From: Stichopus chloronotus
Taxonomy: Eukaryota; Echinodermata; Holothuroidea; Aspidochirotida; Stichopodidae
Assembly: GCA_021234535.1 (NCBI GenBank)
Contig: CM037833.1
Coordinates: 23,156,918-23,220,917 of the forward strand
Length of the DNA stretch: 64,000 bases
Direction: 5' to 3'
Shown here piece after piece: positions 480 through 56,697 of this stretch. The notes beneath the pieces were generated by a model that saw only the letters and a list, made by a program, of their open reading frames with translations, made no database searches and had not been told where the DNA came from. Every line of letters begins with the position of its first letter. The stretch's first letter is position 1. The position numbers and the translations under genes are program-made.

Positions 480-533
480 CTTATCAGTGAAATCAGGTGT
501 CATATATTCATCATTCATATCATCCGAGGGAAT
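480..533 (-). CDS. Gene A micro-exon with an EYMTPDF tyrosine motif
   Basis: This 54-bp phase-0 exon reads IPSDDMNDEYMTPDFTDK. It is preceded on the minus strand by a T-rich acceptor ending CTTTAG and followed by a GTAAGA donor. Acidic residues around a single tyrosine suggest a phosphorylation and SH2-docking site (inference). The EYMT core recurs in the second SH2 exon of gene B (EKEYMTF), which ties it to this family. It is the last gene A exon visible before the left edge, so the gene continues outside the window. Confidence 0.6.
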
Positions 534-10471: not shown

Positions 10472-10478
10472 ATATTAC

Positions 10479-16383: not shown

Positions 16384-16965
16384 CTCATCGAAACCACTTT
16401 CTTTATACTCTTTCAAAGGTACAACTACACCTTCATTTGTTTGCCAGGTAAACAAACGTCCATGGGCCTTATGTAGTTCTACGGCATCTTTAAGATACGC
16501 ACATTCCATTCTAATTCTCACGCCATCCATCAGCAACCGTCTCGGGTTTGTTATTATCCTCACAATAGCAGACGGAAACACACCCACTTGTTTTTGTTCC
16601 GTTATTCCAACATACTCTTCCTGTCTGATGTCTGCCAGGATAAGGACCAGATCACCTTCCTTGAATTTGATTTCTGTGTCATTTGTCCAGTCTGTCAGGG
16701 CTACAGCGTACATGAGGACCATCTGGATCCCATCGACAGATTCGGCCAATTGGGAAATCTCGAACACCACGGGTGGGTCTGTCTGCTTGAAGGTTACATT
16801 TTTTAGCACAGCAACAGCCTCGTCTTTCTTTCTGTATATCGTAAATGTGTTGTTAAATCTTAACAAAATGATTATCTTGTCATTTTGTTGTATGCGTAAC
16901 ACATTGTGTTTTCCGTGGACACGATAGGAATTGCTCAAGTATGTTGATATGGATCTCGTTGACAA
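16384..16965 (-). CDS. Gene A SH3-domain exon (partial gene)
   Basis: This is the largest clean coding exon in the window: 194 codons, with acceptor TTTTCTCCAGAG and a consensus GTAAGT donor after GFDE. Residues about 86-138 fit an SH3 domain: AVALTDW (the ALYDY position), EIKFKEGDLVLIL (the acidic/GD loop) and VGVFPSAIV (the GLFPSNYV end). The usual WW pair is replaced by EEYVG, so ligand binding may be unusual. On either side are similar beta-rich segments (residues 20-60 and 146-188) that I cannot assign. A paralogous exon lies at 48581-49123. The frame is open throughout, so gene A looks intact here. The acceptor may be either of two adjacent AGs; using the first would add two bases and imply a phase-1 upstream exon, which I did not find. 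The likely role is a cytoplasmic signalling adaptor (inference). Confidence 0.75.
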
Positions 16966-19900
16966 CTCTGGAGAAAATTGAAAAGTTTGTCTTTCATTGT
17001 CCTATTCAAAGATACATTCAAAACGAAAGACTGTTGCAAAAACCAAAAGGCCAATAAACAGATTATTTCCAACTTTATATTCTGAAAATTGTATGAAAGT
17101 CTTACATGTGACTAGACATAAAACTTAGAATTCATTTCACGCAAAAAGATTAACGTGAAAAGAATCCAATACTTGTCGGGAAAATTTTGCTCTTACAGGG
17201 CTTCTTACAGTAACTAGATTACGCTAGGAACAATGCTTGTGATTTATTGAAGCACTCTAATGTAAGAATCTTTAGAACGTGCAATATGGCTAACTTCTAT
17301 ATTATTCTGAATCAAACAAGAATAAAAAACCTAGATCAAATAAGAGTAGATTTCAGATACTTACAACCATATAAATACTCTTAAAACTTGGGCAGACACG
17401 GAACAATTTCTTACTGACACTACGCCACCGATAGTAACGAAATTTCCTTTCTTTGTCTCTAAGGGGACTGTTCGCCCTCGTTGTAGTATATTCTATGTAA
17501 TAATTACGTTTGAGGTTTTGGCCAGTTGCGCCAATTACTGAATAGATATGAGTTTACATATTGGTCAAATATGAATGTATAAATATAAGTCTCTAAGATA
17601 TAAAACGTTCTGAGATTGTCAAAATACTATCTGCCATTTCGGGATACTGGTGAGCTATCCACTCTTGATTAGACCTTTGACATATCTTGGAAAATAACAA
17701 CCAAATGGTCGAATCCCTTGCTAACTTTCGTGGCAGGTGTAAATACATTCCAAAGTAGAACTAAATAATGCATTCGTAATTCTTTGGGGACGCACATCTC
17801 TGGGACAAATTTGTGAAAGTTTAACAAAAAACCTAATAAGACCGCTTTGAATATTTCGGTGCATATGAGAGAGTGCCATGAATGGAGAAGGTGAAGTGAC
17901 GGGATGTGAAGTATGTCCCTTTTCCAATTTTGTTTGGATCGTTTTGTTTTTTATTCTTTTTGAGAAGGAGTCATAAAAGCGTATGGACCAATTCTAATGC
18001 AGCGTTGTATTGCAGAATTTTATTACAGATGTAGTTATTTGGAATAAACACTCTCTAATAGTTTTCCAGTGAAAAAATCAAATTGACGTCTCTGTAAGAT
18101 TTACTTTTCTTACACGTATATGTATACTGTAACACTGGACCACTGCGGATTATAACTGCAAAATCATGCCTTGCAAAACACATTGAGACCGCCTTAAGTC
18201 ACTGCCACCTCCATTCTGCCATCAATGAAATTTGATAGCACTGGGTAGTTAAAACAGTGACGGTAACAGTTGTCAGTTTGGTCTACCAAAAGTGGCCGGT
18301 TAAGTTAAAAAAGAGCTATTTGTTTCTAGAAGATTGGCCTTGTATTTGAAGTCATATTCCGATTGTCTTCCCGTGGATCTAGACGTCTGTGTTTAGTTCC
18401 ATATTTTAGGTGCCTTGTAATTTTGTTTTATTTAAATATATATTTCTAAACACGAAGACATTTTTCTAGAGTGGGGGTTCTCCTCTTGCTAGAGATATTT
18501 TACATCTTTTTATTATTAGATTTTGATATTGTTTTTCTCTAAACTATTGAAACTGAGTCAGATGTTGGTAAAACTGGAAGAAAAGTACATAGGGAGGAGA
18601 TAATGTCAACATATATACTTACTATACCAAGCTGCTCTTCTTTGGACACGTGTGCTGAGAGCATTGCTGGTATAGATAATATTTTCAGTTTGTCCGCCAT
18701 ATGCCATTGCAAACGTGGAAACATCAGAGATTTGCCTTTGTGGTGTTTTCGTCAGTCTGAAAGAGGAAATGCTAAATTGAGATTTTGATACACTCCTTCA
18801 CTCAGTACTTTGGCCAAGATCAGTATTAGCGTCGGTCCAACTTAAAGTGTTGAACTTATAACTTAGAAATATCAACATAAAGGTATGTGATTATTAAAAT
18901 ACACACATATAAATACTTCAGTAAAATGTTTGGCAAATTACTTCGCTCAGAGATATCCTCGCTGAAGTGACACTTAATCAAAAATATTTTTTGTTTCTTT
19001 GTTATGAGAACTGTGTTTGGAATATGTATACGTTATTTTCATAGCCCACAGACGTAACGAACCTGAACGATAGACAAAGTCCTTATTCTTGTTAAACTTC
19101 TCAACACTGACTTCAGACGGAGTGTGTGATACTTCAAGGGACTTGGTTTATTTTTGATATGATACTTCTGTTGATTTTGTATATGGTACGATGTCTGGTT
19201 CATCCACGAATCCAGTTTCAACTTTTTTTGTTAAACTAATCCTACTACGAATTAATCGGTCTTGACGTAGCACTGACGCTACTGGTTTGCTCATTGCTAA
19301 TAATTTACTGCCCTACATGAGGCATAGCACCATTTTGATCACCTATTTGGTGATAGAACACTTTTATCGGGGGAGTCTCAAAGCATTTCCCTGATCGATA
19401 TAGTTTCATGATTCATTGGCTTCACTAATGTTTCTCAGTGAAAGACACTAACCTGCAATCGCAGAATGAAGTGAAGAAGTGTCTCTGAGGCCTATCCTCG
19501 CTCGATTTGCTTCTCAGTTTATACACAAACAGTCATTACAACATTTTGTCTGGTATTACGGTTACTGATTGAGCGATTATCTCTGACATTACAATAAACG
19601 GAATATCCACAACATCTCACCACCATAATAAATGAAAATTGGGATAACGTTTTGATGTAGTACCAAACTAGATCTGTGCATCTGGCCTTTTACACATTCT
19701 TCGATCACCTTAATTTAATCTGTAAGAATTGGTTTCTTATAAAGTGTACAACTAACAGGAGGAATCATAATTAGGAGGAGGTACTCATAGATTACTCAAG
19801 ATATTCTATTATCAATCAGAAAGAAACATAAATTACTACGTTCTTATCTTATGAATCCTTCTCCCAACAACCAAATCAAGTGCAAGACGCACAGTAAATG

Positions 19901-34626: not shown

Positions 34627-35186
34627 GCCAACAGGAATACACGGTATGCCACACTACAAGATTTTAACTTTGAAAAGAAAAATAAAGCAAAGCAGGGAAG
34701 GATTCTCTTTGTAATGTTTCAAATCACATACACATCATGCTGAATACAGCAACAAAAATTACTCACGTAGGGCGACTCAAAGAAACAAACAGAAAGCGAT
34801 TATTCTGGATTAAACTTGAACAACCGTACTCATTGTTTTATACTAATCTTGACAGTAATGATACCACGACTTGAATGTAAACGACTTCGATATGATACAA
34901 GAACTTGACCTCAGTCTCCATTTTTTTCCAAGTGCATTAAACATTTTAACAATTAGTCAAGCGGGGATAGTTTTCTGCACATTTCTGTTATTAGTTTGTT
35001 CTTTCTGTTATATTCTTCACATTAGATCTTTATCATTCATTCTGAACTTTTATCTTTCATTCGTGACATTTATCAACGTTTGCTTCTACGCTCTTTTCTT
35101 TTGTGCCAGCAATGTAAATAAACAACGCGATTTAACAACACGGAACTGTGCACAATCCAATCCAAAATAGTACACTTGAATCTTTT

Positions 35187-35282
35187 CTAGGAGATGTCTT
35201 GAACCTGGAGGTTTTCGTAAAGGTCTTCTAAAAGTGGTTTTATCTCTTGATATTCAAGCGTCCGAAGAGCGTCAAGAAGTAC
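35187..35282 (-). CDS. Gene B terminal exon: C-terminal half of Death domain
   Basis: Thirty-one codons plus a TAG stop, after a CTCTTTGCAG acceptor, phase 0. It starts VLLDALRTLEYQEIKPLLED and ends VQDIS. The LLxALRxLxxxxIxxLLxDL pattern is the helix 5-6 end of a Death domain. It joins in frame with the last codon of the 36066-36264 exon, giving ...WLDRKGSDATVE then VLLDALRTL. A Death domain here implies homotypic assembly with other Death proteins (known for the fold; partner unknown). Confidence 0.7.
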   Translation of the reverse strand, partial: VLLDALRTLEYQEIKPLLEDLYENLQVQDIS

Positions 35283-36065
35283 CTGCAAAGAGCACAATGT
35301 ATTTTAATTTTAATGAATTAAGATGTTAACTTTCTTATAGACATATCCTTTGACCTCAACACAAGCAAGCCTACACAGTATAAATCAGAAAGCTATCTTT
35401 CAATTTTGAGTTTTTTCCTCTTGATGGGGTGATGTTTTTGCGTTAGGAAGATTTTCTTTTTCATTCCTTCACTACGATTATTGCTATACTTTTCAACTAG
35501 AAAGAATGCAATGCTGTGACGGATGTTGTGGTTAAATAATTAGGTCCAATACCTAAGCTGTGCTCTTTTCTTCAAAGCACTATTAAGTAACTGGCCTAAC
35601 AGACCACCAGAAATGCCACGGTGAACCGCACCACATAAAAAAAAAAACAGGCACAACAAGAACCAAGTGAAGACCATCTCTGTCCTACGGTAGAGAGAAG
35701 GTGCACAAATACTAATTACCGTTCGCCCATATCAGCTCTAGAGAAATAAAAATATATTCCCGGCAAGTATAACACCGATTCCCAACAACTATGAAAACGA
35801 AAGTTCTTGTCTAGCTAGTAATTTGTTTCTGTAGTATTTGGAAATTGCACATTCCTAAGTCATCAACAACAAAAAAATGTTTTTTTTTCAGTGCTGCTAA
35901 CGGTGAATGCAGATGTCGGAGGAAAGGAGGTTTTACTGATAATTCAAATTCAGTTAATTCTGAGGACTTCAAGCATTACAGAACGATCGTGAGATGACAG
36001 ATGAACGTTTGCCAGGTCCCAGTTTCATTTGCACCAGTCACCTGACCGTCTACTGCTGAACTCAC

Positions 36066-36264
36066 CTCAACAGTTGCATCACTTCCTTTTCTGTCCAGCC
36101 AAACTCCCATGAGACGACTGATTCTTTCTTGGACTCTATCTTCCGTTTCCAAAATTTGACGAAGTTTTTTTCAGCGGAATACCGAGGATTTTTCCAAATT
36201 CGACCAGTTTTTCCTCTGGCAAGTGATCAGCTACGGTTTCACATAAAGCTGGCGTTACTTGTTC
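36066..36264 (-). pseudogene. Gene B exon: N-terminal part of Death domain, with +1 frameshift
   Basis: The acceptor is CTGTACAG and the donor GTGAGT. The first frame reads LPEEKLVEFGKILGIPL and the second RVQERISRLMGVWLDRKGSD, the W..R.G.A core of a Death domain. The two frames meet at a run of seven A (minus strand) at 36165-36171; six would keep one frame (GIPLKK then LRQIL). Exon length is 199 where 198 would fit its phase-0 neighbours. The single extra base in a homopolymer is either a sequencing or assembly error or a real slippage mutation. Confidence 0.65.
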
Positions 36265-37538
36265 CTGTACAGTAAGGAGATTATAGTGTCAAAAGATTCA
36301 TATTTGTTTGACATTGGGCAACAGCAGTGATTTGATAAAACGGACTGTGGTAGTACGAACAGCTGCCTGCTCACTTGACACTCGATTCTAGTGTGAATGC
36401 CTTAATAGTACATTACTAGGTAGACATGAGGGGAAATGATGTTCAGATGTATATTTGTCGTCATGCTACTAAACTTGTCAAACGTCGCCTCTTTTTGTCG
36501 TGAAAATTTATACCTAGTGACGAATTAGCCCTACCTTGATTCGTGATAAGCTTGGTATGCCGGGATACATCATGTGCATTCCAATTTCATATCACTGCTG
36601 TCTTAGCATGTGCCAACATTTGCTTATATCTCATACGCAAAGAGTGTTGGAAAGAAGACGTTCTTTCAAGTTCAAAAGTAATCTTTAAAAGGACAAAATG
36701 TCTCAGATAAGAGAATTCGAGCTCATCGATTATCAATCAAAAGAAGCATATACCGTAAACGCAAATATATCCTGCAACGTGTCTGCATCGTGTCTTGATT
36801 GGAAATGAATCAGCTATCTTGACTCAATGTATTTGTCATCTTAAGGTATTATCTGGGAATAGCATCGCCTCCAAGAAATTACGTGAAGGTATAGTAGCGC
36901 CAACGGAAAAGGAAAGCTACCACAACCTGAAAACCCACAAACCTGAAAACCACCACAACCTTAAGATGAGCCTACACCAGATACAAAAATACCTAGATAT
37001 GGAAGTAAGCAATGCTCAATGAATGAACGAACCGACGAACGAATAAATAAGCGGAATGAATGAAAGTTTCAAGTTTCCCTTGCACCTCTGGTAAAATTAA
37101 CCTCTCATGAACTTTACTGTGAGGGTGGACAAGCCACCAGACTGAAAAGTTGGTCGCAGTTGGTTCACAATATACTCAAGGAACCATGATCATGTGCGTC
37201 ATCAACCATGCTAACCCCATGCGAAAGAGAATGAACTGAAGGGACGACGAATGTACCACAATACAATAATTTATGTGTTAGCTATATAAGGTTCAGATGA
37301 TACTCCCATTTCCATGACGTTGACTTATCTCTTCGTATTGAACATCTTGTTGCTCCAGAAAAATGAAGTAGAACCAACATATCTTTTGCACTCTGTTGAA
37401 ACAATCACGTAACAATGTGCACACAGAAGACCTATTGGACAGCGGTAGATAAACTAACACGTCAGAATGCAACTAAACAATCAAGACATCATGGATCAAC
37501 TTTTCTAGTGTAAGGTGTGTCGTCTTTGTCTCGCTTTA

Positions 37539-37562
37539 ATATTAACTTTGCAAAGTTAATAT
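37539..37562. repeat. Perfect 24-bp palindrome
   Basis: Each 12-base arm is ATATTAACTTTG, meeting directly at the centre. It lies in the gene B intron between the 37.6-kb cassette and the Death exons. It may be a hairpin or a dimer-protein site; nothing more can be said. Confidence 0.75.
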
Positions 37563-37642
37563 AAAATTAAAAAAACGATATCAAATTCGCTGATTTATTG
37601 GTATAATGGTAACCAAAAAAGGAAAATTTTGTTTGTTCTTAC

Positions 37643-37690
37643 AGGTTGTATGTGATAGGGATCTACATCTCCTCGCTGTTCGAAAGACGT
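37643..37690 (-). CDS. Gene B micro-exon TSFEQRGDVDPYHIQP
   Basis: A 48-bp phase-0 exon with a strong TTTTTCTATTTCAG acceptor and a GTAAGA donor. It carries one tyrosine in DPYHIQP and sits between the SH2 and Death exons. A possible broken relative lies in gene A at 1336-1395. Confidence 0.65.
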
Positions 37691-38099
37691 CTGAAATAGA
37701 AAAATAATTTGCATTTACAACCAGAATGCCTGTACCAATCAATAATTACTTTTACTTATATCAGTTACATGATTATTCACTGCTACCGTCACACTGATTT
37801 ACTATCCTGAAGAATATTTGCTCAATGACCAAGAATACAAATACAAACTATGTGCAGTATCCAACTCAATATGCGATGGTCGTCGATAGATTTCTACATT
37901 TGCAAATACATATGAACTTTCAAAGAACAATCACGGTCATAAGAGCGCCCTCACAAATCCATTCAGCCATTCACCCACAAAATGTCACCAAGCATAAATT
38001 ATAATGCAGCAAATAGTTTTAGTTCCCCCGCAGAGAAACAAACGCATTCAAGAAAACAAGGCAGAGAAGAGGATAATATATTAAGCATATGAAGGGTAC

Positions 38100-38270
38100 C
38101 TTGAAGCTCATTGGATTCTTGTTTGCGTAATCCGAGTCGAAAGTCATGTATTCTTTCTCCTTAGGCCCTCCTCCAAGACGAATTGGTTGATCATCTTGGA
38201 AACGCATTCCTTTTGACCTTGCAAAGTGCAAAATGCGTTCTTCTATCAGAGGTGTTCCTTGATGAAGTGT
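38100..38270 (-). CDS. Gene B exon: C-terminal part of SH2 domain plus tyrosine tail
   Basis: A 171-bp phase-0 exon (57 residues) with acceptor ATTTTGCAG and donor GTACC. It begins TLHQGTPLIEERILHFARSK, matching the end of an SH2 domain (F.TL..LI...HF...G). It continues GMRFQDDQPIRL and then an acidic tail, KEKEYMTFDSDYANKNP. The YANK site fits the pYxN consensus bound by GRB2-type SH2 domains (known motif; use here is inference). The EYMT core recurs in the gene A exon at 480-533. Confidence 0.7.
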
Positions 38271-38453
38271 CTGCAAAATGACATTATCAAGTGTTAGTCG
38301 ACTAAAATCATCGAAACCTTTAAACTGTTTTCCGTACATTATGAATACCTAGTAATAACAGCAAACGTGAAAGAGGTGTAAAGAGGGAAGATTGAAGCAA
38401 AGTTTGCAATGACGAAGGTAGTGAAAAATAACTCTAACCGCCATTACGTTTAC

Positions 38454-38641
38454 CTCTGCATTCGACGTCACGTTTTCGATCACTTCCAAATGATCGACAT
38501 TGCAATACGATGTGACAGCACAATGTTGTTACTGTGATCACCTTTATAGCGAAACAGATAGTCACCCTCATGAGTTAGTAGCTGTTCTGCCTTTTCTCGT
38601 GACATGCGGTCTTTGAACCAATGATCTCTTTTCACCTCTCC
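38454..38641 (-). pseudogene. Gene B exon: SH2 domain N-terminal part, with a 1-base frameshift
   Basis: After an acceptor ending CACCACCAG the exon reads GEVKRDHWFKDRMSREKAEQ, then LLTHEGDYLFRYKGD and NNIVLS. This is a clear SH2 start: the W, the SR..AE..L helix, and the FLVR-strand arginine in YLFRYK. The frame then slips; a second frame gives YCNVDHLEVIENVTSNAE up to a GTAAAC donor, with the expected beta-D histidine. The exon is 188 bases where 189 would fit its phase-0 neighbours, so one base is missing around 38505-38517. Unlike the Death exon shift, this one is not in a homopolymer. Confidence 0.7.
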
Positions 38642-38659
38642 CTGGTGGTGTAGAAACAT

Positions 38660-40650
38660 ATCGCAATAAAATGACAGTACAAACTCTACCGATAATTTTA
38701 TTCAAAGTTCATAATCCGGAAAATGATATCCAAATTCGTTACTTTTTTTGTTCATTTAAACTGAAATCAATAGATCTTTAATGGATCAAAGAGGTGTAAT
38801 TTAGAAGTTACACCAACAACTTTTCCCTTGTACCAGCCTTGTTGTCCATAAGGACTTTTTGTTTTGTTTACCATTTACAGATTCAATGGTCTAAAAATGT
38901 GTTAAAGATTTAAATGTCAAAGGTTCATGTTTCCGGGTCGTACATTACGTCGGAAAATTTTGTACTTAGCTGTAACATTGGCCAGTCCCTGCACTTTGAC
39001 ATCAGTAATCAACTCCAACCGGTTATAACGCCTACCACGAACATACAATATAATGTTGTGTAACATGCTGGGAATGTGTGCAACTGCAACTTGTGAAGTA
39101 TGGGACAGGTGATAAAAGTCTACAGTAAGTTATTATCTGACTCTTTAAAAATATTGCATATATGGCAACTCTATGCCTCATTCTCATTCATTTGTGTATT
39201 TTGATTTCCACAACTGAGAAAAAAATAGTCGTTTTGATTCGTGACATGATTGTCATGACTTGACTGTCAGCAGCAGACCTCGGATGAAATCGTTGCCATT
39301 TCCGTACTAAGGTATAAGCAGGGTTGAATGGAGTATGTTTGGATACTGGAAACTGAACAAACAATAGAAAAAATAAAAGGTACCCAAAGCTGCACACATC
39401 TTATGTGGGTGAAGACTTGAAATAAAAAATCTTGATATAAAATATAAAATTTCAACTTGTCTTGTCTACATATCATTTCCTGAATGGAAACCATCTATTG
39501 CTGACCGGGTGACCACGGCTGAATTTTAATGATTTCCTGTGGGTTATCTGTTAATGTCCCTAATATCAAAGCCGACAGTCGTTGATAGTATTGGATCACT
39601 TTCAAAGATTGTGTTGTTTTAATACCTTGTTGAAATACCTTGTTGAGTAATGATGCATTTGACTTTCGAAAGAAACGGGCCGAGTGCTCAGCTACGTCGC
39701 ATTGCAAAGACGTTTTGTTAATGAGTACGGAGTACAATCTGTCTGCTACAGTAATGTCACTTGATCAACAGATGCACCTCGAGATGGTAATGACATTGTA
39801 AAATGCATTTAGCGTAAGACTAGCAACGTGTGAGGTTAGCCTTGAACGATGAGTTTGGCCTTGAAGATGCAAGGTCTTATACCTGGGAGGAGAATGTTGA
39901 AGTGTTCGAGATCATGAAACTTGTAGATCCACTCAGTTAGTTTAATGACGCTAGAACAATTACTTCAACTGTACTACTATGTGAGGTGGAGTGTTTTGTC
40001 TGCTGAATCCCGCTGAAGAAGTACTTAGATGCAAGTAATACTACGACTGGCAGAGGCGGTAACCAGGGAATTTTTCATGAAAAGTGTGTCGGCTCTCAGA
40101 TGTCATGGGGGGTGGGGGTTGATCATGACATGCGTAACATGACATGCGTAATAATATTTGCAAGATAAGCTTACTTCCTTGAATAGAATTCTGAAGGAGT
40201 TTCATCGCACTTTTTGTTCAGTCATTGGGAAGAATATAACAGCCTTTAGCAGTGCTTACCAAAACAATGCTGCATCGCATGTAAGATTTCAATTCACAAG
40301 TCTGGGGGCTTCCGTAGATTTTTGAGACAAAGCCTTATCGTTCTGCTAAATGCTGACCGCAATTTGATGCCTCAACTTTCAGATGATCTTCAGACTTGCT
40401 GGGTTACGGTTATTTCATTCAAAAGTTAGTATGGTTGATGCCTGACTGCGGAGAGCTTATTACAGAGTGTGATATGTGATGTGCATTAATCTTTTTTGAA
40501 AGGATAGCTATAGGTTTAAACATATTTCACAACAATAAACATTCCAATCTACACAGGAGCTTCGTATATATTAGCGGTTTCATAACTTTGCCGCGTTCAC
40601 GAGTCATGCACAGTTAAGTATCAAGAAAAGTAGCACCCCCAGGGAGTCAT
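38660..40650. other. Gene B intron, no supported exon
   Basis: A minus-strand 80-codon ORF (39495-39737) has no motif and no splice support. A direct repeat, CATGACATGCGTAA, occurs near 40128 and 40140. Confidence 0.35.
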
Positions 40651-40652
40651 AC

Positions 40653-40709
40653 CTGAACAGCAATAGCTTCCGCTGACTCAGAAAGGCGATATTTGCTCCC
40701 TGGTTGTTC
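40653..40709 (-). CDS. Gene B micro-exon EQPGSKYRLSESAEAIAVQ
   Basis: A 57-bp phase-0 exon (19 residues). The acceptor is CTTTTCAG and the donor GTATG. It has one tyrosine (SKYRLSE) and lies directly upstream of the SH2 exons. Confidence 0.6.
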
Positions 40710-41414
40710 CTGAAAAGTACGAAATGTAAGAGTTATCCATTCTCTAGCGATATATACACGTGTTCTTCCAAATACGTGAAAAATTATTTTAGGTGGACAC
40801 TGAAAGGAGCAATAAACTCACCCCACTGAGACGCCACGCGACCATCCTGGAAACGTGCCCCCATGCTCTCAACTAACTCAAAAATTCACTAGGGGCCATC
40901 GAACTCCCCTAAGAGATGTCACATACCCCCCTCCTCTTCTTCTCACATGCCTACCTCGACAGAAAGCAAAGGCACCAAGCGGTGAAAACCGCTTTGAAAG
41001 ACGCCTAACTTCATATTCTCAAGGACCACTCGCCAATTCTGTTCCCTAAAAGTGCTAAAAATAGTATCACGCCAATTGTTCATTAATTTCTTGAGTAAAG
41101 GGAGAGTAACAGACACACACAAAAAAAGAAAAACGCACAAACACCAAGAGAATATTCTGAAAAACTACTACCATATAAAGCAACCTTAACCTCCAATGAC
41201 CATAGGGTCCATTGTTTGTTTAACAAACTTCCTAAAAACCATTTTCATTTCCAGAAAAAAAAGCTCAATGTAAAATATGCATAATGCTCTGTAACCTTCT
41301 TCGGACACGACATCTCATAATATTTGGTACAATCAACAGCAGAAATGTGTTTTAACTTCTCTGGTGGTACCTTTTCAAATTTGTATGAAGAATTACAATA
41401 AAAAAGTAACGTAC

Positions 41415-41459
41415 CTGAATATTTCTCATGTCTGAAGGATCATCACCTGCCTCAATATC
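41415..41459 (-). CDS. Gene B micro-exon DIEAGDDPSDMRNIQ (duplicate 2)
   Basis: A 45-bp phase-0 exon; the acceptor is TTTTTTTCAG and the donor GTACG. It is an acidic peptide without tyrosine. It differs from the 41819 copy at one residue (R for V) and by silent changes, so the coding sequence seems constrained relative to its duplicate. Confidence 0.65.
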
Positions 41460-41818
41460 CTGAAAAAAAGAACCCGCACGTGACTTACGAAAATACGAAT
41501 AAGTAGAAACAATGACCGTTTAGGGGACCAATACACCATGAGAACATTCTGGAAAACTAGTACTATATAAAGCAACCTTAACCTCCAATGACCAAGGACG
41601 TTCTCTTACTTGTTTAGCAAACGTCTTGAGACCATTTTTATTTCCAGAAAAAAATGCTCAATGTAAAACATGCACAATGTTCGGTAATCGGTCACATGCA
41701 GTCTTCGACACGAGCATCTCATAATATTTGATACAATGAACAGAAGAAATGTGTATGTACTTCTCTGCTGGTACCTTTTCAAATTTGTATGAAGAATTAC
41801 AATGAAAAAGTAATGTAC

Positions 41819-41863
41819 CTGAATATTTACCATGTCTGAAGGATCGTCTCCTGCCTCAATGTC
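41819..41863 (-). CDS. Gene B micro-exon DIEAGDDPSDMVNIQ (duplicate 1)
   Basis: A 45-bp phase-0 exon with a TTTTTTCCAG acceptor and a GTACA donor. It duplicates 41415-41459. Of five base differences in the exon, three are synonymous (GAT/GAC, GGT/GGA, GAT/GAC), consistent with selection on the peptide. Confidence 0.65.
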
Positions 41864-41929
41864 CTGGAAAAAAAGAGCCCACACGTGACTTGCGAAAATA
41901 CGAATAAGTAGAGAGAATAGCCGTTTACG

Positions 41930-43840
41930 TGACCAATAGACTTCATTACTTAAAAAATCATTTTTGTTCTCAATTTCAAACTAACGTAACTCCTTAAGTC
42001 TCAAATGAGGCTTCCAACAGGGATTGCAACAGTCACATTAGTTGCATGAAACACTCGTTGAAACGTTCTTTACTTAAACAATAGAAAGAAAATTTTGCGA
42101 AGAAAATTGTGATGCACAGTAAGTTGCATAACTTTTTGAACTCCTCCAGAAAAGAATGTGGTTCCGAGAAAAATTTGCAGGAACGTGTTTTGCTTTGTTT
42201 GTCTTAATACATTGGGTATTTACTTGGACTTCCTCTATGCTCTCTGTAATTGGTCTCGGGTCTTCATATTCTCAACTGAAGCATTGAGTTTAGTTTTGAG
42301 AGACCACATTTGGTTATTTGCACTAAGGCATTGAACATCTTTACAAAAGGACAACTGAGGTGGTGAAAACTTTGTGGTGGAATGAATTTTCAGGATTCGT
42401 ACAGGTTATTCTTAAAAACGTTTAGTATCTCCACAGAGTACTAACACGTAGTTCCTGATCCATCTGACCACATACCAATAGCAAAATTGTGTTAATGGTA
42501 TTAAGTGCTCACATCACGTAGGAAATATAATTGCGTATGTGGTATTAAATGCTCAAATCTCAGGAACGAAAACGCCACTGATAAACGGCACTTTAATAGA
42601 AATGAATGAAGAGCAAACAACAACTCTGAAAGGCTACTGTCATGTGAGTCAGCCTATAGTGTACATTATCTTGAAACTGTTCCAATGACTTTGGGGTTTA
42701 CCACGAAAAGTTCTTCAGGTTTGTGAAACATGCTCACTTTACCAAGGCGACATTGCGTTTTAGTATCATTTCCATTACTTTTTGTGGGGTAATGTTTGCA
42801 GGATCGCCGAAATATTTCTCAGTCTACGATATGCTCGCTAATAAATTTGCACAGATATTTTCGAAAAAAAATGTTTTTTCAAGAATTATTTCCATATCAG
42901 GGAACGTGAGTTAAAAGAGTATTGAGCAACATGACAACAGATGGTCTTAATTAACTTAATAGTCTTAATAAAGTTACTATTGATGTAGAAGGTGAGATTC
43001 TTCGGAGGGATTAAGAACTCATGGACAAACGACTCTCAACAACCCAAAACAAAAAAAAATAACAAATACCGACACTATAAACAAACAATTAAAAACGAAA
43101 CCGCGTTCACCTAATAGCGGCACCAGGATTTAGAATTTGAGGTTGAGATGGAGGTCAAAAGAAACTGTTGGGATTAAGGGGAAAGCCCCTTGAGACTCTG
43201 AGGTTTAGAATATCACTGAGAGAAGACCTAAGTTTCAGGACTCCTTAAAACAGAAAATTAAATGCAACATATATGTAAGCAAGGAACAGATATACATTGT
43301 GCGTGAGACCACTTGTTTCAGCTGAGTAGGGTGGGGGCACTGGGGAAGTTCTGTTAAGGGGCATTGTCTCCATTGACGTCACCACTGGTTTCAATCCAGC
43401 AAAATCCTTCCAACCAGCAAAGACACTGGTCTTCATGTCATCACGCCCAAACAAAAAGCTAACAATTACACTTGAGTGCCACGTGGGGTTCACCTGACAG
43501 CAGCAAAACAAATGAATCTTTTTAGAAACACTATCTTCTGAAGAAGACACAGACCAAGAGGCGTCTAATATCTTCTTCAGTATGAAGAGGGGTATGTTAC
43601 TGATATTCACTAATCAATCTACCCACAAAGCCCAATGTTGTTTAAAAACAAAATCTGAAGGAAGTCATCTTCCACTGCTAGTGCAAGAAATTATAAATAA
43701 ATTTAACTGTTGCTTTGAAATTATAACAACTTGATTGTATAGTGTAAATGAGTACTTTATTTCCGAAAATATCAAACAGTACTCAAATGCAAAACACCAG
43801 GTCGGTTGTGCTAGTTTTCAGACTAGTTTATGTACTACAA
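41930..43840. other. Gene B intron, no firm exon
   Basis: A 121-codon minus-strand ORF at 43245-43610 contains RTSPVPPPYSAE, but clear splice borders are lacking and it may be repeat-derived. Otherwise AT-rich. Confidence 0.3.
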
Positions 43841-43845
43841 CTGAC

Positions 43846-43884
43846 CTGATAGTTTATTTCATCTTGGAAGCTTTCATCGAGTAA
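43846..43884 (-). CDS. Gene B micro-exon LLDESFQDEINYQ
   Basis: A 39-bp phase-0 exon with a good acceptor (TTTACTTTCAACAG) and a GTCAGT donor. The peptide is acidic with one tyrosine near its end. It is the smallest exon I support in this gene. Confidence 0.55.
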
Positions 43885-44029
43885 CTGTTGAAAGTAAATA
43901 GAAAGGATTGCTTTTTAGAAACCCATGTAGGTCACAAAATTACTTGAATCACACTGAACATCAGTCCAGGTGCGCTGTCTTGAGAATCTTAGTCCAACTC
44001 CACCAATGAGCCAATCCATGTAAGCAAAA

Positions 44030-44710
44030 TATCTTGGATAGACACCAGATGGGTATAATTGAGCTGACATAAGAACCCAAATGGGTAGATGGGACACACC
44101 GTGGCCCTCGTCCTCGGACTCATTTTTCGAAATGTAGGTTATAAAGGCTATGTATCAGATATAAATAAGCAAGCTCTTCAGTAACTTTTTATTGTCAACA
44201 GCCCATTTAGTTAAGGAATGACAATCAACACTAACGATTACTTTGCGCATAAGCAATCTTACTTGTGAACTTACTTCTTCTCGTAGAAGAATGAAAAGGT
44301 AAATGTATAAACTGGACTCATTGGCACTATACAAAATTACCGGAATACAAAAATGTGGATTTCAACCCTTTAATTATTCATAAGATTAATGATCTTTGCA
44401 AGAAACCTATGCATGCACGTAAGGTGAATAGTACTCTCAAAATATGTAAAATTAATTTATTCCGTAGACTTTTCATAACCTTGTATTTGAGGACTAACGA
44501 CGTAAAAGCCAAAGTAGTATAGAACTGCAATTCCGTTGCTCCCACTTAGTACAAATGAAGCCCACCTGTGTACCATATGGGTAAATGTCTCCTCCATGTA
44601 GACCATACAGCCCAAATGACACCCATCTGGTGGGACCCATGTGGTACATATAGTCAACATCATGCCCAGGTGGAACCCAGATGGATCCAGATGCTCTGCT
44701 TAGTACAACG
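44030..44710. repeat. Degenerate repeats of a CCCATCTGGGT-type word
   Basis: Words such as ACCCAAATGGGT, CCCATCTGGTGGGACCCA and CCCAGGTGGAACCCAGATGG recur, mostly in 44040-44100 and 44555-44700. They give rise to spurious glycine/tryptophan-rich ORFs. The unit is short and partly palindromic. Confidence 0.5.
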
Positions 44711-45211
44711 TACGTGTTACTAGATCTTGCTGACTTGGCCACTTACTTGAATACTGATCGAAACCAAAACGAGACATTTATTTACATGTGAGGTTAGTGG
44801 AAGGTCTTGTGAAAAACGTACACTCGACCTAAGCCTTGCACTTGTAAGTGCTATGTTAAACGAAGCTCTGTCACAAAATAACTTGACCAACACAGAATAA
44901 CAGTATAACAGCGATACTGAAAGTCACTCCATCCTCTCTGTCTAAAGGGTCTCATTTCATCCCCCCCCCCCCATCACCCCTTAGAGCGACAGATATGCTG
45001 GTAGACCATGCCCACCTGGCTATATCTAAACTTTTATACTCATTGAAACTAGAAGATATTTATTTGGCACAGAGAAATCAAACGGATGTCACATTAGAAA
45101 TATGCAACAGACACACCTTAGGGTCTCTACATGAACTTGGTCCTCCTGTAGCTGGTGGCGTATCACAGTTGATCTTTTTTTTTTAAAGAGAGAAAGAAAA
45201 AAGAGAAATCA

Positions 45212-45995
45212 AATGAAACCATCCCCATTTATATTCTAAAGCTTACATAATTCCCTTCACTTGCAAATTGCGAACAGCTGGCATTGTAAGCATATTACAT
45301 ATATACAGTATATTGCTGGGAATATAATGAAACTGTGTTATTGCAACTTCACTAGTTGTGGGCGTTGTTACCATAAGCACTGCGACATTTGATAGACGTA
45401 TAACTTGACGTCAAACGAACTGGAAACCCCAATAGATGGATCATGCCTTAGGGCCAAATGGGTGATTACGGATGTGCAAAGTGATAGAAATAATAAACTT
45501 TGTATAAAGTGCTTTCTAATAAAATAAATAATAAAGTGCTGTACAACATAAAGCGACAAAAGTAAGATAGTGAAATACATGGGCAAGTTAGACAGCTCAA
45601 GACAATAAACAGATAAATAAAACATATAAATTAGAGCAAGCAAGAAAGTTAAGTAACAAAGTTTGTTACAATATCATTTAAACCCCTCCAGGTCAAGTCA
45701 AAACATATAGTCCAAAATAAACTTGACTATTGAGATACAAACAAGAAAAAAAAATACATAGCTATTAAACCTCATCGAAGTCATTTTCTGAATCACTGGA
45801 ATTAGACCATAGACTGGTATCCTAAAGAAATGGGGCATGAAGGTGAAGAAATGGAAAAAGAAGGTGAATTGTAAGAAGAGAAATCAACTATGTTTATCGT
45901 GCAATAGTTTTACATACAGTGGGTACACTATTTGAGTCGTTGCCACAGTATCCTTACAATACGATATACTTCATAATAATTTTCAGTTGTATGAA
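45212..45995. repeat. Segmental duplication copy 1 (with LINE-type 3-prime tail and a micro-exon)
   Basis: It aligns with 47030-47780 from ATGAAACC.TCCCCATTTA through CGAACAGCTGG to the TGTATGAAT border. It contains a LINE-like 3-prime segment (minus strand, TTGTACAGCACTTTATTATT) and the 45771-45821 exon. The LINE tail is present in both copies, so the insertion preceded the duplication. Confidence 0.85.
45771..45821 (-). CDS. Gene B micro-exon DTSLWSNSSDSENDFDE
   Basis: A 51-bp phase-0 exon of 17 residues. The acceptor is TTTCTTTAG and the donor GTTTA, weak but the same in both duplicate copies. It is serine- and acid-rich. It is the duplicate of 47573-47623; the pair differs at several residues but keeps DTSL.SN and DFDE. 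Confidence 0.6.
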
Positions 45996-45998
45996 TAC

Positions 45999-46052
45999 CT
46001 CGAATTCTGGTAGTGATGACAAAAGTGGTGCTGGAAGAGGTGGTGGGTTGCC
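45999..46052 (-). CDS. Gene B proline-rich micro-exon GNPPPLPAPLLSSLPEFE
   Basis: A 54-bp phase-0 exon with a TTTCCTCTGTAG acceptor and a GTATTC donor. PPPLPAP is a typical SH3, WW or EVH1 ligand type (inference). Similar border sequence (GTATGAATATCTCG) near 48183 and TGGTTGCCCTG near 48330 suggest a decayed second copy of the surrounding segment. Confidence 0.6.
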
Positions 46053-46583
46053 CTACAGAGGAAAGAAACCAAATTTGTTAATGTTCTCACTTCGATGCTG
46101 TGACATACGCATCACCCGTTCATGATCTCGAGGAGTCCCCTCGAGGCTAAAGTACTGGGTGATACCGCTTTTCATATTTTTTTTTCTTCTCAAAATTCTC
46201 AGGGAGGCTCTGTTGGAGGAAGAATAAAGCTCTTACGAGGTCAGCTCTTATATATGCTGATTGTTCTATGTAGCTCGAATGTGGAAACTGGATGTTTGAG
46301 CCATGAGGGATCATTTGATGTCCTAGTGTCAAAGGGTGCGTAATTGTTAGTGGTTTCTTTTATTATCAGATGAGTTTTAATTTGCTAACTGTAATGATAT
46401 AAGGGTGAGGATCAATGGTGATGCACGTTAGCCATTCCTGGCATTATTGCAATAACATTTTCATTTGGATTTACCACTAATCACGTAACCAATGACGTCC
46501 CTATAAAGTCAATAAAAAAAAATGATATTGATTAAAGTGGCGATTGCACTGTTTGCTGAAATAAATTATATTAATTTGCATAC

Positions 46584-46634
46584 CCTGAGATCCAAAGATA
46601 GCTTCCACTCTGTTGGATATTCTTCCGGTCTGTC
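46584..46634 (-). CDS. Gene B micro-exon DRPEEYPTEWKLSLDLR
   Basis: A 51-bp phase-0 exon with acceptor CCTCTTCTATATAG and donor GTATGC. It has one tyrosine in an acidic context (PEEYPTEW). Confidence 0.6.
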
Positions 46635-46867
46635 CTATATAGAAGAGGTAATATTGAAGGTAGGCCACAAGTGATGGCAACTTACTTGGATTTCTAAGAC
46701 TGTCAGTACTTTGAATTAAATCTATGAAAATGCTATTTCCATTTTTTTTTTTTTTAGGTTTGTTAAGTTAGAGATAACAACAACAAACTAACAAGTATCA
46801 TTGCTCGGACTGTGATCATTTCCAAATAAAAATGTGATGTTCGAGAATTTGAACACCGAGAACTTAC

Positions 46868-46921
46868 TACATCAGAGTAATCTGCTGATATTTTACCCAA
46901 ACCTTCCGCGCATGTTGCATG
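46868..46921 (-). CDS. Possible gene B micro-exon ending ISADYSDV
   Basis: A 54-bp phase-0 stretch bounded by an AG (GAAATCGATAG, poor pyrimidine tract) and a consensus GTAAGT donor. It reads HATCAEGLGKISADYSDV. The donor and phase fit the pattern and the acceptor is weak, so confidence is lower. Confidence 0.4.
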
Positions 46922-47029
46922 CTATCGATTTCAAATCTTCCCTTATCACTAGTCATACATAGATTATCCATGGAAGTGTTTTAACTGATCAGAAGTACAC
47001 CTATAACGTTAATGAGTAAAATGAGTGAT

Positions 47030-47780
47030 CACATGAAACCTTCCCCATTTACATTCTGAGGCTAACATATATCCCCAAACTTGCAAATGGCGAACAGCTG
47101 GTATTGTATGCATATTATATACAGTATATTGTTAAGAATGCAATAAAACTGTGTTATTCCAATTTCACTAGTTGTGCGCGTCGTTACCATATGAACACCA
47201 CTATTTGATAGACGTACAACTTGACGTCACGCTAAGTGGTAACCCCAATAGGCGGATCGTACGTTAGGACAAATGGTTGATTACGGATATGCAAAGTGAT
47301 AGAAATAATTAACTTTAAATAAGGTGCTTTCTAATAATATATCAAAATGCTGTACAACGTAAAGCGAAAAAAAGTAAGACAGTGAAAACATATAGGCAAC
47401 TTAGACAGCGCCAGACAATAAACAGATAAATAAAACAAATAAATTAGAGCGAGCAAGAACGTTAAGTAACAAATTTTGTTGCAATATCATTTAAACCCCT
47501 GCATGTCACGTCAAAACATATAGTCTAAAATAAACTTGACTATTTAGATACAACCAAAAATAAAAATTAAACCTCATCGAAGTCATCTTCTGGATCTCTA
47601 AAATTAGACCTTAGGCTGGTATCCTAAATGGAAAAAGAAGGTGAATTGTTGGAAGAGAAATCACTTCTGTTAATTGTGCAATAGTTTTACGTACAGTGGG
47701 TATACACTATTTGAATCATTGACACAGTATCCTTAAAATTCGATATATTTCGTTTGCATAATTTCCAGTAGTATGAATTC
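47030..47780. repeat. Segmental duplication copy 2
   Basis: Partner of 45212-45995, offset by about 1.8 kb. It carries the same LINE-type tail (near 47300-47360) and the 47573-47623 exon. Confidence 0.85.
47573..47623 (-). CDS. Gene B micro-exon DTSLRSNFRDPEDDFDE
   Basis: A 51-bp phase-0 exon, duplicate of 45771-45821, with acceptor ending ATTTAG and the same GTTTA donor. Most differences from the other copy change amino acids, while the frame, length, DTSL and DFDE ends are kept. Confidence 0.6.
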
Positions 47781-48580
47781 CACGAAGTCTCGAAATTTGT
47801 TTTTAGTAGAGTTTAGTAGAGTTTGAGTTTCCGTTCAACCTTTTCAACAGTCACTTCAGGGTTTGGAACCCGGAAACCAGCTGAAGTTGTACTTGTCCAT
47901 AATGGTCACCTTACATTATGTGCCCAAAAAAATGAAGTTTTCGGACTGTCGCATCCCTTTGAGGCAAACAGTGCGTAAAAAAAAGGATTATGACCATAAT
48001 ACATGTCGGCATACCACCAGCTTTTGCTACAGCTATATAGCCTACGGGCAGGACGTCCTTGAACAGTGGTTGATATGCCACTGAGCCGACGGCCGTTTCT
48101 CCTGCGGTCCGCTAATTTGACATCTGCCAAATTTACGAGCCCCCCTCCCCCCTCCCCCCATATCAAAATATCATTAAATTTGTATGAATATCTCGTAGTC
48201 ATGTAGTGATGATAACACACACAATATTGTGATGACTCAGAGAAAGGAATGCGACAACCAGTTATTTCCCTGGTTCAAATTAAACTCTTAGCATTTGTGC
48301 CGCTTTTCTGCATTTCCTGTCGTGGATTAATGGTTGCCCTGTAAAATGTGTGGCTCTAGGGTGATAACCTGGATGCCTCCTTAAAAAATCAAGTCCAATT
48401 TCACAATCAAACGCTTATTGTTGAAATTTTATCTCTTATAGGGGCTAAGTGGAATTTGCTGATGTTTACGTTCCCTTGTTGGGATTTGTTTAGACTGTTA
48501 ATGCCATGGAAAGAGATCGTTATTATTCGACAAAAAAGGATATCTTTTTTTTTTCCTGAGAAGAAAAAATGAATACTTAC

Positions 48581-49123
48581 CTCTTCTGAACAAAGTTCTT
48601 GAAACTGTCCTAATAGAAGATGAACACCTCCTTTTGTTTGCCACTCAAATACTGTCTTCGGTGATTTAAACAGTAGGAATACCTCGCCAAAATCACTTTC
48701 CACCCTCAGCATCATTTCTTTCCTCATGAATTTGCGAGGCTTTGTGATTCACTTCACAAACTTTTTGGGGAACTGCGTGACCTTATATTCCCTTGTAATT
48801 GCGATGTAATGATCCCCAAGAAGCCTTGATATGATTAGGACTAAATCATGTCTTTGAAGGTTTATCTTCGGCCGGCTTTTGCTTTCCCAGTTGCGTAAAA
48901 CAACGGCATATGAAAGGATCATTTTTACACCTTCCATAGAATTGTCGTATTTCGTTCCACACGACATAACCGGTGGGTTGCGTTGCTTAAAAGCAACATC
49001 TTCCAGAACCGCGAGAGCGCCATCTCTGTGTCTATAGACAACAAACAAGTTCCTGTGTCTTAAGAAGATGGACAGCTTGTCATCTGTCTGAATTTCAAGC
49101 AGTTCTCTGTTTTGGTGAACAGA
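48581..49123 (-). pseudogene. Gene B SH3-type exon with an in-frame TGA
   Basis: It is paralogous to the gene A exon at 16384-16965: VLEDVAFKQRNPPV against VLKNVTFKQTDPPV, and VKMILSYAVVLRNW against IQMVLMYAVALTDW. The SH3-like part continues RHDLVLIISRLLGDHYIAIT and TQFPKKFVK. A TGA at 48749-48751 follows, exactly where gene A has an isoleucine, and the same frame then resumes (ITKPRKFMRKEMM ... FEWQTKGGVHLLLGQ) to a consensus GTAAGT donor after ELCSEE. The acceptor is uncertain: no good pyrimidine tract precedes the possible AGs near 49124-49136. An ATG at 49127-49129 lies in frame but an upstream TGA precludes extension. The likely state is pseudogenic or divergent. Confidence 0.65.
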
Positions 49124-49139
49124 CTGCATCCTGCTTCAG

Positions 49140-50710
49140 TTTCGTTGTTTTGCATAGTTTACTCAAGATCTCGCTCGTGTCTGCGCAGTGAAGAGAAACA
49201 GTTCGTCAACCAAACAATCTAGTTAAGATATCGAAATGATTAAAAGCGTCAAATCAACTGGGACTTCAGACGTCCACGAAAACAAAGTCCATATGTCTCT
49301 TACATACCTCCTCTAACTTAGTTACCTACCCCATCCTCGTTTAAGATAAAAGGTACTCTTATGTGACCAACCTTATAAAGAGAACCGCGTTAACCTCATG
49401 TACAGGCAGCACCCAAAACAAAGCAAGGTAATAACAAACACAAACAAACCCAGCCATTCACGCTACATGAACTTTTGATTAGGGTTGAACTGACAAATGT
49501 TTGGAGACTAAGAGGGGCGCTAGCAGCTTTATTTTGGAGCGAAACCAGAAGCAAATACAGAATGTGGTATTGTCAGTATTGTTTGGATGAAAAATTAATC
49601 TCATTTGAGAGTTTCCCTCTGAAAAAGTCTTATAAAAAATTACACATTTCATGATGAGTATATGCAGTACTTGCTTGAAGGCATAAAATTGGCAATGTCA
49701 CTATCATATCCTGGATACAGGGCGCTGTAGTATTCAAACTTGCATTTTCTATACCTTTTCTTTTATTGTTTTCTCATTCTTATCTTCTTCTATTTACTTT
49801 ATCTTTTTTTAAATACTGAAAAGGGCGCCTTTAAATCCATTTGAGTCAGCCATCGGGGAGGGGGGCGGTCCCCCTCCTGACCATATGATAGCTTCGCCAC
49901 TGAAAATAGCTATGGTTATGTAACCAAAAAAGCCTCGACACTGAACCTTAAAAAAAAAAAAATGCAGTCTGGATAGCAGGTTTCACCTAGTTGAAGGTTT
50001 CTCAGTTCATATTCTTACTATGGGCTATACGCAATCCAACAAAGCAGAATGGACTACATTAACTCTCTACACACAACTTCCCAAAACACTTCCCTCCTGT
50101 TTTTTTTTTTTTTTTTTTTCCGGTTTTGATTGTACTTCTCCAGTGAGTCCTCCGAGTGCATTTCTGGTTCATGTTTTCTATATACCTTAAAAGTTTTGCA
50201 AAATTAAATTTGTGTAGTGATCCTCTTACCTAGCATATACTTTTTAAGTTGCAATTCGAAGAATGATGTGTAAATAAATTCCGCATTCCTACGCTACGCA
50301 ATCTCTTCATCACAGCTGGACGTTGTCCTACCAGTTCGTGACGTGACTTGCACAGGAAATGACGTCATACCAACTGTTACTTGGATGCGGATAACATCCA
50401 AATTGCCGTGTCGATCGTTACATGTAGCGATTTGGTTTACCGCCCTGTTCCGAAAGTTCATCCGCACAGATAGAATTAGATACGTTGAAACTCAATGTGA
50501 GCGAGTTTTGAAGCTTACCTATCGGCATCCGTGTCCGTACTTATGGAATCCTACCTTAAAAGTTGAACTGTCCAAACTTTACTTACACACACAGTGCACT
50601 AACACGAATTTACCAAACACAATATGCTTATTATCGCCTTTTTGCATAAACCAGCTATATGGGTAGGGCAAATGATTTCTTGTACATACACACACTTTGG
50701 GTTGAAGCAG
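49140..50710. other. Upstream of gene B SH3 exon, nothing firm
   Basis: Poly-T (50099-50120) and poly-A runs, no supported exon. A 107-codon plus-strand ORF at 50343-50666 has no recognised domain. Confidence 0.3.
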
Positions 50711-50713
50711 GGC

Positions 50714-51066
50714 TTAAAGGGAAATAGGGCGTTTAGAATATACCAACATGGCAAATGAAGAAAATAGCTTTAATCATTATTAAACCATTCAGTCTCACCA
50801 ATAAACATCTGCAAGAGCTTCATCTCCTCAAACCATGAAGCATGTGACGAGTAACAGAAGATGCATCATTTGAATTTTGAAAAGTTTGGGTGAACAAATG
50901 ATAGTTGAGCAACAAATAACTGAATTTCTATCTGTGAGAATCTTATTCCTTGAAAAGAAGGCTACTGTCCTTCCTTATTTTGAATAATCTATCATTCTAT
51001 GTCCACAAATATTGGTTTTAAAAATATGGTTGTTTTCTGTAAAACAAACGCCCTATTTCCCTTTAA
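50714..51066. mobile_element. 353-bp MITE with terminal inverted repeats, copy 2
   Basis: The ends read TTAAAGGGAAATAGGGCGTT and ACGCCCTATTTCCCTTTAA. TTAA is present at both borders. The interior matches the copy at 9692-10044. It has no coding capacity. Confidence 0.85.
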
Positions 51067-51347
51067 ACGCAAATAGCAATACTCTGTTGACCTTTTTGTG
51101 GTTGACAGGAAAGATTTTTTTTATACAAGAACTGATGTTGGAAAAAATTCTTTCATGATTGATTGCTCAACTGGGGCATTCCCACATGCAGCAGGGTGAA
51201 ATATTGCGAAACAACAAAAATATACATTACAAAGAGGTTCATGAACGAGAGTCTGAAATGGTAACAGGTTCTCCAGTTGGAAGCTTTCCTAATTTTGATA
51301 ATAGTACTTCCAGAGACTTTACTTCAATATGAAACAGGAATTCTTAC

Positions 51348-51408
51348 TTTGCACAGCTGGTGAAGCTGCCATGGAGTCAATCTGATGGTATTCAAACAGC
51401 AGTACAAG
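51348..51408 (-). CDS. Isolated exon candidate (possible first coding exon)
   Basis: The acceptor is very strong (TTTTTTCTTTTTCAG) and the donor is GTAAGA. The 61 bases read LVLLFEYHQIDSMAASPAVQ plus one base (phase 1). It contains an ATG followed by AASPAVQ, so it could be a 5-prime exon. Its phase does not fit the phase-0 pattern of gene B unless the SH3 exon uses an offset acceptor, so its gene is uncertain. Confidence 0.45.
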
Positions 51409-51409
51409 C

Positions 51410-52800
51410 TGAAAAAGAAAAAAAAAGATCATTTGCAATCGGGTGTCCTTCAATCACTAATCCTCGACACAGATAGAAAGAATATGTAGTAACTTCCTTT
51501 GCTATAGCCAACGAGGATGGTGTAAGAGCAGGTAGCCACTAGAAGGCTTGACTTCCAATAAAAAAAAATCAGTAAAACTTTCCTCTTTTTTGGTGCACAA
51601 ATTTAGGGAGAACAGACTGAAATCGTGCACCACTTTGAATCTAGAGCCCCCTTAAAAAGGGGAACAGTCTTTCAGGATCTCTTCCCAAGCCCTCAAGCTC
51701 CAACATGCAACCAACCCTAACCACCACCACAAATTGGTTAGTCTGGTTTATACCTGCCTGATTTAGTGCGCCCCTATATTTCGGCTTCTGCAGCTAATAT
51801 GAACATTTTTTTGTGACGCGTAGATATTAAGTTCATTTTGAAAGTATCTTGTAATCCTTTTTTATGTAAAGCTAGTCTTTAGAAGTATATTCCTTTCTTA
51901 TTTTCCTCTCTAACCAAATATAAGCCTCCCGTAGACAAATCAAGGCCCAGAAGGAATCTGAAGTTATGAGGGTGTTAAAATGTTCAACAGGCCCTTTTTC
52001 ATATTTGATAACACATGTTTTGCCTATGGACATGGCCCCTAATACCCCTTGCCAGGCAGCTGGAGAAAGATTAGATATTAGATTAACATACCTCAAACAC
52101 TTTAGGACAAAGATTATTTTATTGACCATGACGATCATTACAGCATATGGGGTGACCTAAGGCAATGAGGGTTTGAAACAGGTTGAACCTCAGTAAAACT
52201 ATGAGGTGAGGTTGGACCGAGTGGCTGTTTAGCGTAGGAATTTTGGTATGTAAAGTGGGAAGATCTACTCAAATTTCAAGCATAACTTCACATTTCACCT
52301 ACTCAAGGGCCATCTGCCGCTCTGTTCTCGGACCTCTTCCTCCATTTATGTCTATACTAGACTAGCTAAGAGAAACAAAAGCAAATACTCAAAACAGTTT
52401 TCAAAGAGCGAAATACCCATTTCAAAGAACGATTTTGATACTACGTGTTCCTAGCATGACTCTTAATAAAACAAATTTAAGCAAGGAATAGCCGAAACGA
52501 GCAACTGACCTTAAACCTAATCTGAAAGTGTCCTAGCACTAACTCAAATCCTATCCTTCTTAGAGGTACCTGCAAGGCAGTTGAGCGAATAGACTGAGAG
52601 ATGATAATAGCGGCTTAGAATTTAACACATGATTTACAGAAAATGGATGGTACGTGTATGGATGTTACACAAACACCCCCTTATAATCAGCAATCACCAC
52701 CTTACGTATCTCCACTAAGTTTAGTTTAGTAGAAAAAAGGACTAGGAGGTACAATTAAGTCCCCATCAAGGACCCTGAAAAAACCCAAACATAAAAAAGT
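51410..52800. other. No supported gene
   Basis: An 88-codon minus-strand ORF (51872-52138) has no motif I recognise. Other sequence is AT-rich, with C- and A-rich low-complexity patches. Confidence 0.3.
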
Positions 52801-52814
52801 ACCAAATCAAACCC

Positions 52815-52935
52815 GGTCACAAAGCTTTAAGTACTTCATTAAAACTTCTTGCCATCACTACATCCTCAGGCAACCCATCCCTCCTATTCACTACCCTCTG
52901 CGAAAAGAAGTAACGACGAATATTGCGCCTTCTTT
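52815..52935 (-). mobile_element. LINE ORF2 C-terminal fragment
   Basis: The minus strand reads RRYFFSQRVVNRRDGLPEDV then VMARSFNEVLKAL. The FFSQRVVN.W.GLPE.VV pattern is typical of the C-terminal end of non-LTR retrotransposon ORF2 in invertebrates. No full ORF2 adjoins it. Confidence 0.7.
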
Positions 52936-54490: not shown

Positions 54491-54501
54491 CTTATGGCCT
54501 T

Positions 54502-54687: not shown

Positions 54688-54689
54688 TT

Positions 54690-56690: not shown

Positions 56691-56697
56691 GCGGACG

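Follow-up and report, generated by a model that had tools for sequence, protein, structure and literature searches.

Whether a single echinoderm gene joins an SH3-type domain, an SH2 domain and a Death domain is the question raised by a stretch of 64,000 nucleotides from Stichopus chloronotus (assembly GCA_021234535.1, contig CM037833.1, positions 23,156,918 to 23,220,917 of the forward strand), hereafter the window. A preliminary description, made from the letters alone, had proposed such a gene between positions 35,187 and 49,123, and all the peptides it quoted were recovered on the minus strand where it had placed them. The present analysis favours, by a modest degree, the view that this locus (copy A) belongs, as one of a tandem pair, to an SH3-like/SH2/Death adaptor family shared with the sea cucumber Apostichopus japonicus, through which kinase signalling would seed Death-domain assembly. 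Two features had escaped the preliminary description, namely three frame breaks in copy A and a second, intact copy of its first exon at 17001-16384 (copy B).

Exon order and the one-gene question

Copy A runs on the minus strand from about 49.1 to 35.2 kb, in the order E1, a candidate exon E2, SH2a, SH2b, a micro-exon, D1 and D2. The exon junctions of the model are in phase 0, and ag/gt is kept at every splice site used. E1 (48581..49129) encodes a beta-rich N-terminal part and the SH3-like domain, and ends on a phase-0 donor, gtaagt. The SH2 domain is divided between SH2a (38454..38641, 188 nt, beginning HWFKDRMSREKAEQLLTHEGDYLFRYK), whose frame shifts by one base close to the 3' end, and SH2b (38100..38270, running from TLHQGTPLIEERILHFARSKG to PIRLGG), which has the acceptor ttttgcag, the donor gtaccc and a tail with tyrosines (EYMTF, SDYANK). 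The first four-fifths of the Death domain lie on D1 (36066..36264, 199 nt), which is frame-shifted by one base at a run of seven A, and the last helix region lies on D2 (35187..35282), which ends in the stop codon TAG.

The unity of these exons was assessed with an 'uncharacterized protein isoform X2' of Apostichopus japonicus (P0001; 520 amino acids, intact frame; E 1.9e-20), the only protein among 1850 candidates at E ≤ 10 when the SH2-Death part was used as query. In tblastn, P0001 matched E1 of copy A with 134 bits (41.5% over 183 columns, P0001 residues 51-231), SH2a with 63 bits (70.7% over 41 residues, 262-302), SH2b with 49 bits (43.9% over 57 columns, 325-381) and D2 with 28.5 bits (48.3% over 29 residues, 486-514), and it matched E1 of copy B with 136 bits (41.9% over 179 columns). 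As the best of 30 shuffles of P0001 reached 27.7 bits, the D2 match is marginal when taken alone, but it falls at the expected place; moreover, the score of D2 against the C terminus of P0001 was reached in none of 5000 shuffles. Since P0001 matches all four exons collinearly in one protein, E1, SH2a, SH2b and D2 are considered to form one gene, in agreement with the proposal of a single collinear set. The same order of these four exons is found in a second species, in a protein with no Pfam match to SH3 or Death. The long introns of 5 kb and 4.7 kb could suggest that the SH3-type, SH2 and Death exons are parts of different genes lying side by side; this is very improbable, as P0001 unites all the parts in the order seen here and the model junctions are in phase 0.

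Read as one gene, copy A belongs with P0001 to what is, by sequence, an adaptor family common to the window and Apostichopus japonicus. Besides the order of the four exons, both display a proline-rich stretch before SH2 and a tyrosine-rich linker after it; P0001 differs in its longer linker, and this isoform seems to be devoid of the middle of the Death domain. The linker motifs are SPVPPPYS, EYMTF, SDYANK and DPYHIQP in copy A, and APPLPPPRLPP, YATYSD and TYADIYEP in P0001. The YxN pattern of SDYANK is taken here to be a GRB2-type site.

The remaining parts of the model are less certain. The candidate exon E2 (43296..43493, minus strand) has 66 codons in an open frame, phase 0/0 with ag/gt flanks, and contains the proline motif SPVPPPYS. 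Of the cassette micro-exons of the preliminary description, one is credible, the exon TSFEQRGDVDPYHIQP (37643..37690, minus strand; 48 nt, phase 0, open frame, ag/gtaaga flanks), for which no homologue came out positive; for the second, near 38890-38835, an open frame is the sole argument. The 5' end of E1 is also uncertain, with the first in-frame ATG at 49129 and an acceptor-like cag at 49183-49181. A scan of the minus strand at 48601-58500 revealed no family that could mark upstream exons, and it was insensitive, having overlooked the start of E1 itself. The start of E1 was also considered for a further, fourth lesion; the out-of-frame piece there matched P0001 no better than chance (877 of 2000 shuffles), and the lesion was rejected on that ground.

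SH2, Death and SH3-like domains

The SH2 domain over two exons is borne out by Pfam (PF00017, curated cut-off 21 bits). With an X inserted where the frame breaks, the two exons together reach 28.1 bits when SH2b is started at 38348 and 23.8 bits when it is started at 38270, as compared to 25.2 bits for the open reading frame of the first exon alone and 29.8 bits for P0001. The start at 38348, slightly better in Pfam, adds no residues that match P0001, and 38270 was adopted. The arginine of the FLVR-type motif in strand B, which is important for SH2 function, is kept in copy A (GDYLFRYK) and in P0001 (GDYLFRFK), both aligned with GDFLVRES of SHC. Among PDB structures, SHC (1mil) is the best match of the SH2 part (E 0.0009 with P0001 and 0.088 with copy A), followed by FER, GRB10 and GRB2. 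The SH2 domain of the predicted family protein is of the SHC/GRB2 type. Its likeness to SHC lies in this domain; unlike SHC, neither E1 of copy A or copy B nor P0001 has a PTB (PID) match in Pfam. It differs also from GRB2, whose SH3-SH2-SH3 order is absent from the Pfam scans made here, a Death domain following SH2 instead.

The C-terminal Death domain is likewise confirmed in the joined exons. D1 and D2 of copy A, connected through an X at the frame shift, score 30.4 bits against Pfam Death (PF00531, cut-off 22.6 bits) over profile positions 7-82 of 86. When scored apart, the three Death pieces return no family at E ≤ 10, and the gain upon joining makes a strong case for the frame shift in D1. 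The Death part also has weak relatives in PDB, namely THOC1, ankyrin and FADD (E 0.03 to 0.95). A blind scan of the minus strand at 35101-45000 in three frames, with stops as X, returned only SH2 (18.4 bits) and Death (11.2 bits), at the expected places and both below their cut-offs. The profile search of joined exons that the preliminary description had suggested thus places SH2 and Death above threshold and leaves the SH3 of copy A below it.

For the SH3-type exon, the result depends on the copy. E1 of copy A is sub-threshold against SH3_2 (PF07653, cut-off 21.8 bits), with 16.5 bits alone and 14.4 bits in the joined model, and P0001 has no Pfam SH3 match; copy B (16384..17001, minus strand), an intact exon of 206 codons located 32 kb from copy A, passes with 28.4 bits. 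Among the frames seen in the region, it is the longest without interruption. E1 of copy A and copy B are 36% identical (the residue agrees at 66 of the 183 codon pairs aligned), and at the first, second and third codon positions these pairs are 52, 67 and 38% identical, a pattern that indicates constraint at the protein level.

The ability of the SH3-like domain to read proline motifs, as had been assumed, is doubtful. In ordinary SH3 domains a tryptophan contacts the proline ligand. Copy B, aligned with p67phox, has a glutamate at this position, and copy A and P0001, aligned with each other, have a histidine. The absence of tryptophan at the ligand position argues against PxxP reading, and the domain more probably has a structural role or makes a non-canonical contact.

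The extent of copy B beyond its E1 exon was also considered. No Pfam SH2 was found on the minus strand at 1-6489 and 6485-16383 (stops as X), and profiles built for this work revealed no second copy of SH2, SH2b, E2 or Death in the window (best other matches E 0.32 or worse). Copy B may be incomplete, or its remaining exons may lie beyond the left edge of the window. A possible micro-exon of copy B, IPSDDMNDEYMTPDFTDK (480..533, minus strand), lies in phase 0 between ag/gtaaga flanks and has EYMT in common with SH2b of copy A; its assignment to copy B is conjectural. At 1354-1377 on the same strand, VDPYNIEP resembles VDPYHIQP of the copy A micro-exon (6 of 8 residues, E 0.069), with splice flanks that are not clear. 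No relative of the E1 exon of copy B was found among viral contigs.

Reading-frame damage and the state of copy A

A number of observations weigh against the reading of copy A as a member of an adaptor family, and the foremost is that copy A as it stands is untranslatable, owing to three disabling lesions, one TGA and two one-base frame shifts. The in-frame TGA of E1 (48751-48749) stands in place of a residue that is hydrophobic in copy B and P0001. SH2a, with 188 nt, amounts to 62 codons and two bases, and its frame changes inside the exon: the FLVR-type strand and VLSH (conserved with P0001) are encoded in one frame, in which a stop follows nine codons later, and another frame runs from DHLEVIE onward to a good donor. 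The likeness of this frame-shifted end to P0001 and GRB2 is weak and only suggestive (415 and 335 of 5000 shuffles, respectively). D1, with 199 nt, amounts to 66 codons and one base, and its frame also changes inside the exon.

To the same side belong the points that concern the intact relative. The complete Death domain is documented only in damaged copy A, across a frame shift, since P0001 scores only SH2 in Pfam, with no Death match at E ≤ 10, and the homology of its first Death helices with those of copy A is not significant (941 of 5000 shuffles). The same applies to E2 and the proline-rich linker of P0001 (625 of 5000 shuffles), which leaves E2 without homology support. P0001 was missed by two of the three homologue searches: the 509-residue full-length read-through returned none at E ≤ 1 among the 7998 candidates listed, and the E1 region of copy B none at E ≤ 1 among 596 candidates. 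Having missed P0001 twice, such empty searches prove little, and other relatives may exist. AlphaFold2 models of E1 of copy B and of P0001 are unusable and too poor for a fold search (mean predicted local distance difference test scores of 34 and 35); the order of elements at residues 263-341 of the P0001 model (strand, helix, three strands, helix) suits an SH2 domain, and at that confidence is no evidence.

Given lesions of mixed kind, intact splice sites and a divergence from P0001 no greater than that of copy B, copy A is most likely either recently inactivated or mis-assembled. The chances are about even that it is a true, recently formed pseudogene, which has kept its exons and splice signals and lost its frame. 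The variety of the lesions (one nonsense change, one single-base gain and one single-base loss), the intact second E1 copy nearby and the transposon fragments and repeats in the surroundings all fit such a pseudogene. Opposed to it are the ag/gt still present at all model splice sites, the good scores of D1 and SH2, a distance to P0001 no greater for copy A than for copy B, and the position of one shift in a stretch of seven A, a context prone to sequencing errors. That copy A is a working gene whose lesions are assembly errors is a possible but less favoured explanation. Two of the three lesions are single-base length changes, one of them in a homopolymer, and the remainder of copy A is conserved, as this explanation would have it; a nonsense substitution is, however, not a usual long-read error, and no lesion interrupts the 206 codons of the copy B exon.

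Several repeated elements lie elsewhere in the window. A degenerate reverse-transcriptase fragment occurs at 8015-8236 on the minus strand (RVT_1, 14.1 bits, below the cut-off of 29.6), and a dispersed repeat of 300 nt, 85% identical, at 9736-10035 and 50758-51057. The first long intron of copy A contains a local duplication (45300-45928 and 47116-47705) with four blocks of 81-89% identity, and a tandem repeat with a unit of 161 nt extends over 2.5 copies at 23630-24024. Rfam gave no match in the window, and no DNA match to phages was found.

Known systems and the proposed role

Proteins that unite a death-fold domain with SH3 are known from the CARD11/CARMA scaffolds, which have an N-terminal CARD, PDZ and GUK domains and no SH2. 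No description of the SH3-like/SH2/Death architecture itself was found in the open-access literature searched. To that extent the earlier statement that no described family has this combination holds; it is nevertheless too strong in view of two precedents. NCOA6-clade TRADD-N proteins of Amphimedon combine Death-like domains with SH3 or SH2 (PMC8195603). They resemble the present family as lineage-specific invertebrate proteins with such a combination, and differ in that their Death-like unit is N-terminal with TRADD-N next, the reverse of the order in copy A (PMC8195603). With a limit of E ≤ 10, Pfam listed no TRADD-N family in copy A, copy B or P0001, although remote versions could escape it. 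Designed chimeric SH2/PTB-DED adaptors (Howard et al. 2003, as described in PMC2575513) are said to divert tyrosine kinase signals towards apoptosis. They too join a phosphotyrosine-reading domain to a death-fold domain, but are artificial, use DED instead of Death and do not have the SH3-like part (PMC2575513). In the main text of a census of SH2 proteins in Patiria eggs, the word 'death' is absent (PMC11593052). Hence the pairing of SH2 or SH3 with Death-like domains has precedents, and this arrangement is new within the literature searched.

The order of parts in the family protein would be a beta-rich N terminus with the SH3-like domain, a proline-rich linker, SH2, a tyrosine-containing linker and a C-terminal Death domain. 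From this order, its role is most likely to be the phosphotyrosine-triggered recruitment of Death-domain complexes. The SH2 domain would dock on a phosphorylated tyrosine of an activated receptor or scaffold, upon which the linker tyrosines could become docking sites in their turn. The Death domain would then recruit a Death-domain partner, and kinase signalling would in this way seed a Death-domain assembly.

To our knowledge, tyrosine-kinase signals and Death-fold assemblies are linked in well-studied animals via several separate proteins. A wider and more tentative proposal is that echinoderms own a natural phosphotyrosine-to-Death adaptor, fast-evolving and tandemly duplicated, with which tyrosine kinases seed Death-domain assemblies directly, and which would correspond in nature to the SH2-DED chimeras made by design. 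A natural SH2-Death protein is of real interest, an interest tempered by the damage in copy A and by the want of a complete Death domain in the intact relative. If the proposal is true, a single natural protein with SH2 and Death would constitute a direct wire between tyrosine-kinase signals and Death-fold assemblies, a connection whose feasibility engineered chimeras have demonstrated (as described in PMC2575513), and would offer a concrete gene with which to ask whether phosphotyrosine sets off immune or cell-death complexes in echinoderms.

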